In this document: piece by piece, positions 17,060 through 19,267 of the stretch | How positions within the stretch are numbered: the stretch's first letter is position 1 | Layout: each line of letters opens with the position of its first letter | NCBI GenBank assembly: GCA_013288705.1 | Contig: JABDBI010000013.1 | Span: 1 to 45,971, forward strand | Source: Methanobacteriota archaeon | Lineage (GTDB): Bacteria; Myxococcota; UBA727; JABDBI01 | Direction: 5' to 3' | Length of the DNA: 45,971 bases | Translations under genes and position numbers: made by a program | The notes under the pieces: model-generated | Told to the model about the DNA's origin: nothing | Seen by the model: only the letters and a program-made list of their open reading frames with translations | The model's database searches: none

Positions 17060-17066
17060 GCGCGAT

Positions 17067-17172
17067 CCCCTCTCTCGCTCGCGGGAGAGGGACCAAGGGT
17101 GAGGGTGGGAAGTAGCGACGTGCTTCTTTTCCACCCTCATCCTTAATCCTTCTCCCGCCAGCGGGAGAAGGA
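17067..17172. repeat. Palindromic repeat copies A and B, in inverted orientation, between convergent genes
   Basis: Copy A has a hairpin CCCTCTCTCGC/GCGGGAGAGGG (17068-17091) and a tail ACCAAGGGTGAGGGTGG (17092-17108). Copy B has the reverse: tail CCACCCTCATCCTTAAT (17131-17147) and hairpin CCTTCTCCCGC/GCGGGAGAAGG (17148-17171). With their tails facing each other they form one long imperfect palindrome. The stems are 11 bp with 2-nt loops. The arrangement resembles bacterial REP/BIME elements. No T run follows, so they are not typical terminators. Confidence 0.85.
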
Positions 17173-17202
17173 AATCTTAGCGCCCAGACACGCTATTTAT
17201 TG

Positions 17203-18921
17203 TTACTCCGCTGCTGGTTCTTGCGATATTTTCTTCACCGATCGTATTTCCCCACCAAACATCGATAACGCCTTTTGGATGGTGGGGTCTTCTCGTGTTT
17301 TTGCTTCAAGATCATCCTGCGCTTTTTGCGTCGCGATGTTTCTCGCTTCATCGATTGTAAGAGCTGACGTGGCAGTTGCAGCCAGCACAGGCTCGAGACG
17401 CGCACCTTGGCCATAATGTTGGGCAAGGGTATCTCGTAGACTCTTTTCTGCACGTGCGTCTAACACGCTTTGAAAATGCAGCCGCTTGGTGAACTCCAGT
17501 AGAATCATTGGAGTGCCGCTGCTTGATGATATTTTTGCTACACGCCCATGCTCTAGGTGATGCCCAAGGAGTGGACTTTGCTGCGTCACGGCGTCAACAA
17601 AGGAAAGCCATTTGCTGTCCACCCCGGAGAGTGGTTTGCTCTCCCTCTCCCGCTCAGCGGGAGAGGGATTAAGGGTGAGGGTGGTCGCTTGGGTTGCCGA
17701 GCTTGGTATCGAATCTGTTGCAGATCCACCACCCTCACCCTTGGTCCCTCTCCCGCTGAGCGGGAGAGGGGAAGAAGAAGCGAGCGCTTCGAGCTTGGCG
17801 ATCGCCTCGTTGATATGCATCGCTTCTTGCAGCGACGGCCGATCTGCCATGCGCAGAAAAGTTAGCTCCAACGCAAGTCTTGGCTGCTCCGATCGCGCAA
17901 CTTGCTCGATCCCATCAATGGACATGGCAAACAAACGCTGCAAATCCAGCTTATCAAGACCTTGCGCTTTCTGCGCCACAGCATCGATGTCTTCCTGCGA
18001 CAAATCCGCCAAGTCAGACAACCCACCTGCAGAAGCAGCAATAGCCAAATTGCGAAATTCACCCGCGACCTTATCGATCAACTGCTTTAAATCAAAACCA
18101 TTGGTATGCGCATTGGCCACAACATCCAGCGCATCTTTCACATTGCCTTGAATCAGCGCATCAACAGCGCACAAGATCGCCTTGCGATCCATCAGGCCTA
18201 GGATCTGTGTAACATCGTGCAATGTCGCACGTTCCGGTGAAAAGCTGATCACCTGATCGGTCAGACTCAATGCATCACGCATGCCCCCTTCCGCGGATTG
18301 CGCGATGAGCATCAAACCCGAAGCGTCAATCGTGAGGTTTTCCAAAGCTAAAATCGCCTGCAACTTTTCCACAATAACCTTGGTGGGAATGCGCTTGAAA
18401 TCATAGCGCTGGCATCTCGACAAGATGGTGATGGGGATTTTATGCGGCTCCGTGGTCGCGAAGACAAACTTCACATGTGGTGGTGGTTCTTCGAGAATTT
18501 TAAGCAGCGCATTAAAAGCGTTGGTGGAAAGCATGTGCACTTCATCGATGATGAAGATCTTGAAACGGCAATTGCTGGGTTGATAGCGAGCGGCTTCTCG
18601 CAATTCACGGACATCATCTACGCCGGTGTTGCTAGCGCCGTCGATTTCGATCACGTCTAAGGAAGAACCCGCTGTGACCTCTCGGCAATGTGTGCATGTG
18701 CCACACGGCATAGGCGTGATGCCAGTTTGGCAAACCAACGCTTTGGCCATGAGCCGAGCAACAGTAGTTTTGCCAACGCCGCGGCTACCAGTGAGCAAGT
18801 ACGCGTGGGCAACGCGGCCGCTGGTGAGGGCGCGCGTAAGTGTGTCGATGATGACTTCTTGCCCAACCACATCAGCGAAAGTCTGCGGGCGGTATTTGCG
18901 GGCTAGAACGAGGTAGCTCAT
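17203..18921 (-). CDS. dnaX: DNA polymerase III subunit gamma/tau with an in-frame repeat insertion
   Basis: DnaX is the ATP-driven clamp-loader subunit. The AAA+ domain starts at MSYLVLARKYRPQTF, with Walker A GSRGVGKTT, a zinc module (CQTG...CGTCTHC), the Walker B region DEVHML, and sensor residues in ATTEPHKIP. The tau-like tail follows from about residue 430. Residues 384-427, between clamp loader and tail, are encoded by repeat copies C and D and read SSPLPLSGRGTKGEG and LTLNPSPAERERE; they are unlike any DnaX. The frame is preserved. The ATG at 18921 is chosen; the frame runs to 19011 but through repeat E. The GGTGGGAG before the ATG comes from repeat E. It lies just downstream of the SRP RNA gene. 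Confidence 0.96.
   Translation of the reverse strand: MSYLVLARKYRPQTFADVVGQEVIIDTLTRALTSGRVAHAYLLTGSRGVGKTTVARLMAKALVCQTGITPMPCGTCTHCREVTAGSSLDVIEIDGASNTGVDDVRELREAARYQPSNCRFKIFIIDEVHMLSTNAFNALLKILEEPPPHVKFVFATTEPHKIPITILSRCQRYDFKRIPTKVIVEKLQAILALENLTIDASGLMLIAQSAEGGMRDALSLTDQVISFSPERATLHDVTQILGLMDRKAILCAVDALIQGNVKDALDVVANAHTNGFDLKQLIDKVAGEFRNLAIAASAGGLSDLADLSQEDIDAVAQKAQGLDKLDLQRLFAMSIDGIEQVARSEQPRLALELTFLRMADRPSLQEAMHINEAIAKLEALASSSPLPLSGRGTKGEGGGSATDSIPSSATQATTLTLNPSPAERERESKPLSGVDSKWLSFVDAVTQQSPLLGHHLEHGRVAKISSSSGTPMILLEFTKRLHFQSVLDARAEKSLRDTLAQHYGQGARLEPVLAATATSALTIDEARNIATQKAQDDLEAKTREDPTIQKALSMFGGEIRSVKKISQEPAAE
17643..17770. repeat. Palindromic repeat copies C and D inserted in frame in dnaX
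   Basis: Copy C: hairpin CCCTCTCCCGC/GCGGGAGAGGG (17643-17667) and tail ATTAAGGGTGAGGGTGGT (17668-17685). Copy D: tail CCACCCTCACCCTTGGT (17729-17745) and hairpin CCCTCTCCCGC/GCGGGAGAGGG (17746-17770). They have the same tail-to-tail arrangement as copies A and B, with 43 bp between the tails. The whole lies in the dnaX coding region without breaking the frame and encodes a linker of about 44 residues. Confidence 0.9.
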
Positions 18922-18929
18922 GGGTACTC

Positions 18930-18970
18930 CCACCCTCACCCTTGGTCCCTCTCCCGCTGGCGGGAGAGGG
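18930..18970. repeat. Palindromic repeat copy E at the dnaX start
   Basis: Tail CCACCCTCACCCTTGGT (18930-18946), identical to that of copy D, is followed by the hairpin CCCTCTCCCGC/GCGGGAGAGGG (18947-18970, 2-nt loop). The element ends 9 bp from the dnaX ATG. On the minus strand its tail ends GGGTGG and, with the next bases GAG, makes the dnaX Shine-Dalgarno. This is a single copy without an inverted partner. Confidence 0.85.
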
Positions 18971-18999
18971 GCTTTGGAAAAAGATACGACGATTAGTAG

Positions 19000-19175
<176 letters not shown>

Positions 19176-19176
19176 A

Positions 19177-19267
19177 TGGCGGACAGCGAGGGATTTGAAC
19201 CCCCGAGACCCTTTAGGGGCCTGCCTGATTTCGAATCAGGTGCCTTCAACCGCTCGGCCAGCTGTCC
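19177..19267 (-). tRNA. tRNA-Ser (anticodon CGA)
   Basis: Acceptor GGACAGC pairs with GCTGTCC, with discriminator G and an encoded CCA. The anticodon arm CCTGA-TTCGAAA-TCAGG gives CGA, which reads UCG. The long variable arm (GGCCCC/GGGTCT) fits class II serine tRNA. It is the first gene of the tRNA-Ser, tRNA-Ser, ffs, dnaX series. A possible TTGCGA-17-TAGGTT promoter (19284-19312) is weak. Confidence 0.96.

Follow-up and report, generated by a model that had tools for sequence, protein, structure and literature searches.

The inverted pair of palindromic units that lies in frame within dnaX is best explained as part of a dispersed, non-autonomous REP-like element which entered the linker of DnaX and has been kept there as a disordered, stop-free and frame-neutral peptide, a reading to which we assign a probability of about 0.88. 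The window, meaning the whole 45,971-nucleotide stretch analysed, is contig 13 of a 1.63 Mb genome that is 74% complete and comprises 51 contigs. The repeat shares the defining features of coding palindromic elements that resemble the Rickettsia palindromic elements (RPEs): it occurs in many copies, it sits in frame in several unrelated conserved genes, and the peptide it encodes is missing from element-free orthologs (RluD, ThiL, AsnB, UGDH and CPBP). Protein-coding palindromic elements are thereby extended to a lineage distant from Rickettsia, one of bacteria with small genomes in which many copies lie inside genes.

The palindromic pair in dnaX

The host gene product matches TIGR02397 (dnaX_nterm) with 440 bits against a cut-off of 250 and carries the expected AAA/clamp-loader domains (DNA_pol3_delta2, lid and gamma3), with domain III ending near residue 363. 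The initial annotation described, in this essential replication gene, an inverted unit that adds about 44 residues without breaking the frame, and its coordinates and description are correct. Repeat search returns two arms of 43 nt each, 95% complementary and 42 nt apart, and the frame is open across the residues encoded (SPLPLSGRGTKGEGGGSATDSIPSSATQATTLTLNPSPAERERE), which follow clamp-loader domain III and precede the tau-like tail. The predicted peptide runs SGRGTKGEGG...TLTLNPSPAERE. The RNA is predicted to fold at -106.9 kcal/mol, compared with a shuffle mean of -51.2 (z -13).

Table 1. Palindromic units and associated genes in the window
Feature	Position	Strand	Details
Intergenic pair A/B, 38-nt subfamily	17065..17174		A 17065-17108 (+) and B 17131-17174 (-); lies where convergent genes meet at their 3' ends
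dnaX (DNA polymerase III gamma/tau), host gene of the insert	17203..18921	-	572 aa; open reading frame and translation
Unit C, 39-nt core	17640..17684	+	3-nt apical loop, ATTAAGGGTGAGGG tail; model R1 72.6 bits; dnaX reading TTLTLNPSPAERERE
Pair C/D, inverted palindromic units, in frame, tail to tail	17643..17770		Residues 384-427 of dnaX; arms 17643-17685 and 17728-17770
Unit D, 39-nt core	17729..17773	-	ACCAAGGGTGAGGG tail; model R1 71.3 bits; dnaX reading SPLPLSGRGTKGEGG
Unit E, single 38-nt-type copy	18930..18973	-	8 nt upstream of the dnaX ATG; fifth copy in the window
SRP small RNA gene and two adjacent tRNA genes	18994-19267	-	Immediately upstream of dnaX

A likeness between C/D and the neighbouring intergenic pair A/B, as originally proposed, holds for the tail-to-tail layout but not for subtype, since C/D combines 39-nt units with a 42-nt spacer whereas A/B has 38-nt units, a short spacer and a AAGGATTAAGGATG arm in one of the two. 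The purine-rich tail of unit E (GGGTGAGGGTGGGAG) appears to sit at the position expected for a ribosome-binding site. Unit E lies between the dnaX start codon and the genes for SRP small RNA and two tRNAs; these RNA genes were the only nearby Rfam matches, and the repeat itself has no match in Rfam.

An AlphaFold model of DnaX built with 11 homologs (mean pLDDT 79.7) gives intact and confidently predicted domains on either side of the insert, while residues 383-434 fall below 50 and lack secondary structure. This prediction makes a disordered extension of the linker the best description of the insert. Measured from the conserved LE to the conserved W, the linker has 59 residues here compared with 21-41 in five family orthologs that are free of the repeat (counted from alignments), so that repeat-free relatives do not share a linker of the same length. 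Linkers in other families of the order are longer again, and across the phylum they are fast-evolving and rich in Pro, Ala and Ser. Given this hypervariability the empty site in dnaX, taken alone, is not sharp. The dnaX gene of a genome from another family of the phylum (G026; L047 ~1320-1520) contains in-frame ATCCCCGCTTTCGCGGGGAT hairpin repeats in its linker, encoding peptides like VIPAKAGIQ. This in-frame hairpin is of ATCCCCGC type, and it is an independent palindrome invasion of the same DnaX linker, a parallel to the case described here.

Copies across the genome and among relatives

A 28-nt pattern allowing up to 3 mismatches has 40 matches in the genome and none for the reversed control; the matches lie at unlinked sites on many contigs, many of them inside genes, and covariance model R1 recovers further degenerate copies beyond the 40. 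The count proposed at the outset places the repeat throughout the genome, including many genes other than dnaX, and neither of the two refuting conditions set there holds. Besides dnaX, in-frame copies occur in about 14 genes of recognised family; Pfam supports the assignment of 13, and for FtsY the support comes from solved structures. Hosts include MutL (a pair), TonB, ferrochelatase HemH, ThiL, RluD-type and RluC-type pseudouridine synthases, a chorismate mutase-prephenate dehydratase-DAHP synthase fusion, a DUF6178 protein, a DCC1-like protein, CtaA, MenD, FtsY and an MFS transporter. An FAD-oxidoreductase-like reading frame on C9 and an unassigned one on C35 are likely also hosts, and were left out of the count because their Pfam support is below cut-off or absent.

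Two of these genes have empty sites in relatives. RluD has 16 residues in the element columns compared with 3 in orthologs from six family genomes (+13 aa), and ThiL has 16 compared with 2 in three of four family orthologs (about +14 aa), the fourth, from G007, being split between frames and uninformative. With flanks well aligned in both, the alignments indicate clean empty sites. For CtaA the element columns hold about 4-5 residues more than in relatives. In FtsY, RluC and MenD the copies sit in variable loops of the family alignment and leave their length almost unchanged, and the same appears to be true of HemH compared with solved structures. In addition to the present repeat, the MenD reading frame (G000:C2, L176) encodes another repeat-like peptide, SPLVPLLQRGNFF, which is missing from orthologs.

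In-gene copies are mostly single units, and nine intergenic pairs share a compact layout with a core span of 73-74 nt, many intergenic copies having AGATTTCC or similar at the outer foot. Of 41 aligned units, 14 lie within genes and 27 between them, and the length of the core was scorable in 13 and 26 of these respectively. The core is 39 nt in 12 of the 13 in-gene units but in only 4 of the 26 intergenic ones, the other 22 being 38 nt (Fisher p = 5.2e-6 for this genome, with members of a pair not fully independent). The 39-nt coding core reads CCCTCTCCCGC-NNN-GCGGGAGAGGG-ANN-AAGGGTGAGGG, and its extra base is located in the apical loop. As 39 nt equals 13 codons in any frame, the coding form is frame-neutral. 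Coding units are read mainly in three frames (PLPLSGRG-KGEG, TLTLNPSPAERERE and APSPLIPLP), giving Pro/Ser/Gly peptides with charged residues. The split is an association and not a demonstration of cause, and it may go back to two older subfamilies, one for each length. More speculatively, and with the odds against it, the 39-nt form could be a coding-adapted branch, distinct from the 38-nt intergenic branch in its length and stop-free frames, for which protein genes would be the habitat in compact, reduced genomes and of which each genus of the family would have its own. The split makes an old question testable, namely whether such repeats survive in genes by chance or whether a branch has evolved to be harmless there.

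By a strict pattern none of the seven other family genomes initially seemed to have the repeat, a result overturned by a looser pattern, which finds intergenic copies in G004, and by covariance models, which find a sister form (AAGTCCCTCTCCA....TGGAGAGGGATTTAGGGTGAGG) in G002, G007 and G004. The covariance models detect no repeats in G005 or G006, and exact matching of the long motif against named genomes gave no hit. G002 and G007 represent two other genera of the family, and about half of their sites that were read lie in long reading frames, in frame and mostly with Pfam support, amounting to about 20 in-gene sites. Their hosts include MutL, TruB, RsmG, RsmE, SuhB, TrpE-TrpG, E1, AsnB, UGDH, CPBP, HemD, ThrC and ALDH. 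Relative to G002, G007 has net insertions of +28 in AsnB (a pair), +10 in UGDH and +7 in CPBP; ThrC, an AddB-like protein and E1 are length-neutral. Where loops have about the same length in relatives (FtsY, MenD, RluC, HemH, ThrC, AddB-like and E1), the element replaced a variable loop or was trimmed into it and is not a simple addition, which counts against the favoured reading. Some sites are thus net insertions and others are loops now composed of repeat sequence.

Certain hosts recur, MutL in the genome studied here and in G002, and the TrpE-TrpG and E1 junctions in G002 and G007. One ALDH loop (L345) holds the present sister repeat in G007 and a different repeat-like peptide, of SRVKPGMT type, in G002. 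Together, recurrent hosts and different repeats in one ALDH loop point to insertion-tolerant loops rather than to a function specific to dnaX. Orthologous proteins of different genera thus have different repeats settled at one and the same loop.

Relation to known coding palindromes

A close parallel is that of the RPEs (Ogata et al. 2000, 2002, cited through PMC10969869 and PMC3767692), dispersed palindromes that are tolerated in frame in many unrelated core genes. They are mostly 84-192 bp and reported from Rickettsia and Wolbachia, and nearby sites in orthologs may hold RPEs of different groups. An RPE is described in Rickettsia DnaE, the DNA polymerase III alpha subunit (PMC3767692), so an element in an essential replication gene is not unprecedented. 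The systems resemble one another as in-frame dispersed palindromes in unrelated core genes, including one for a DNA polymerase III subunit. Compared by description, they differ in that the repeat described here has a 38-39 nt unit, a GC-rich CCCTCTCCCGC stem and a home in a family with small genomes. This family probably belongs to Myxococcota, as suggested by large-genome members of its phylum and by the named dnaX matches. The Rickettsia parallel drawn in the initial annotation is apt, and intragenic REPs are also described from other bacteria (PMC3733652).

PMC3733652 describes GTAG/CGTC-tagged REPs within reading frames, REP-sized hairpins present in frame as singles and dimers in genes such as uvrA, uvrB, recB, dnaE and truB. 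Their hosts include Opitutus, Thioalkalivibrio, Xanthomonas and others, with many genes of DNA synthesis and repair and also of tRNA modification. The likeness covers REP-sized in-frame hairpins, single and dimeric occurrence, and genes of replication, repair and tRNA modification. The dnaX repeat family differs in having neither the tag nor an element-flanked RAYT; no conserved GTAG or CGTC adjoins the foot of the hairpin, where aligned copies have ATTTCC/TCTCCC. The parts of PMC3733652 consulted make no mention of a split between 38-nt intergenic and 39-nt coding units. Nematomorph mitochondria also have inverted repeats in translated genes, in their case perfect ones that overlie conserved codons (PMC6649704), whereas here the repeats are dispersed insertions in linkers and loops. 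Coding palindromic elements are therefore a known kind, described chiefly in Rickettsia and in a small number of other bacteria. What sets the present, untagged family apart is its apparently myxococcotal lineage, the extent to which several genera carry it, and the division into 38- and 39-nt units.

Routes of spread and competing explanations

In the model we favour, units of the REP-like element would enter the DnaX linker without shifting the frame. Copies would arrive by transposition, out-of-frame arrivals would presumably be purged by purifying selection, and the insert would be tolerated where the added peptide is disordered and stop-free. One conceivable route, which we propose only tentatively, is that the single-stranded hairpin serves as substrate for a Y1 transposase of IS200/RAYT type acting in trans. 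A search for a REP-associated transposase, suggested at the outset, yielded one intact IS200-type Y1 gene and one degenerate Y1-DnaA fusion, and among the Y1 loci of this 74% complete genome none is flanked by the repeat. The Y1 gene at C15:5183 scores 75.9 for IS200 (cut-off 55) and 24 for REP_Tyr_transpos (cut-off 80), and that at C14:13130, fused to a DnaA-like domain, scores 28.9 where the cut-off is 80. About 0.7 kb separates the C15 Y1 gene from the CtaA copy, which is inside another gene, and in G002 a similar hairpin occurs within a few hundred bp of one Y1 locus but does not form a flanking pair. Repeat-bearing genomes have 2 to 5 Y1 matches each versus 0 or 1 in repeat-free genomes, and G005 and G006 have one Y1 gene each despite having no detected repeats. 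No target-site duplication was established at the sites.

Alternatively, the spread of the repeats may be due to replication itself, through template switching or gene conversion at hairpins, with no transposase involved. Near-perfect arms, the lack of an element-flanked transposase and the length-neutral replacement of loops in several genes are consistent with this route, which we nevertheless consider unlikely as net insertions in RluD and ThiL are about the size of a unit, that in AsnB is the size of a pair, and copies are dispersed to unlinked sites on many contigs. Retention in an essential gene with the frame intact might instead reflect a selected function in DnaX, such as a tuned linker or a binding site. 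Such a role is improbable for an insert predicted to be disordered, the same peptide family being found in functionally unrelated proteins.

Slightly less probable still is a functional RNA hairpin at the boundary of domains III and IV, where ribosomes would pause and a short gamma-like product would result, in a position like that of the E. coli dnaX frameshift signal. The hairpin is very stable and directly follows domain III, and TAA in one forward frame of unit C would offer a stop to a frame-shifted ribosome. Against this, the repeat also occurs in many genes without known frameshifting and is absent from the DnaX of relatives. Near the hairpin there is neither an X XXY YYZ slippery heptamer nor an A/T run of 6 or more, the two heptamers found being at codons 201 and 277. 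Programmed frameshifting in dnaX was rejected for this lack of a nearby slippery site. Ordinary drift of a low-complexity linker, with its likeness to the repeat arising by chance or convergent composition, would fit the fast-evolving Pro/Ala/Ser-rich linkers of the phylum, but is refuted by the genome-wide copy count and has a negligible probability given near-exact 43-nt arms identical to copies elsewhere, no reversed-control matches and the fold z of -13.

Further mobile or repetitive features were seen. An IS200-type Y1 gene (L064 1370-1990) has long flanking inverted repeats, CTCATTCACGCCCTGGGAAGGGCAG, that are unrelated to the dnaX repeat, and another dispersed repeat, encoding the peptide PGHHVRLTTPMFSWAVA in spurious reading frames, occurs at L064 ~1990-2060 and in L180. 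At L065 859-1824 a RAYT-like Y1 domain, in which NEIR replaces the usual NHVH-type motif, is fused to a DnaA C-terminal-like domain and is possibly a domesticated regulator.
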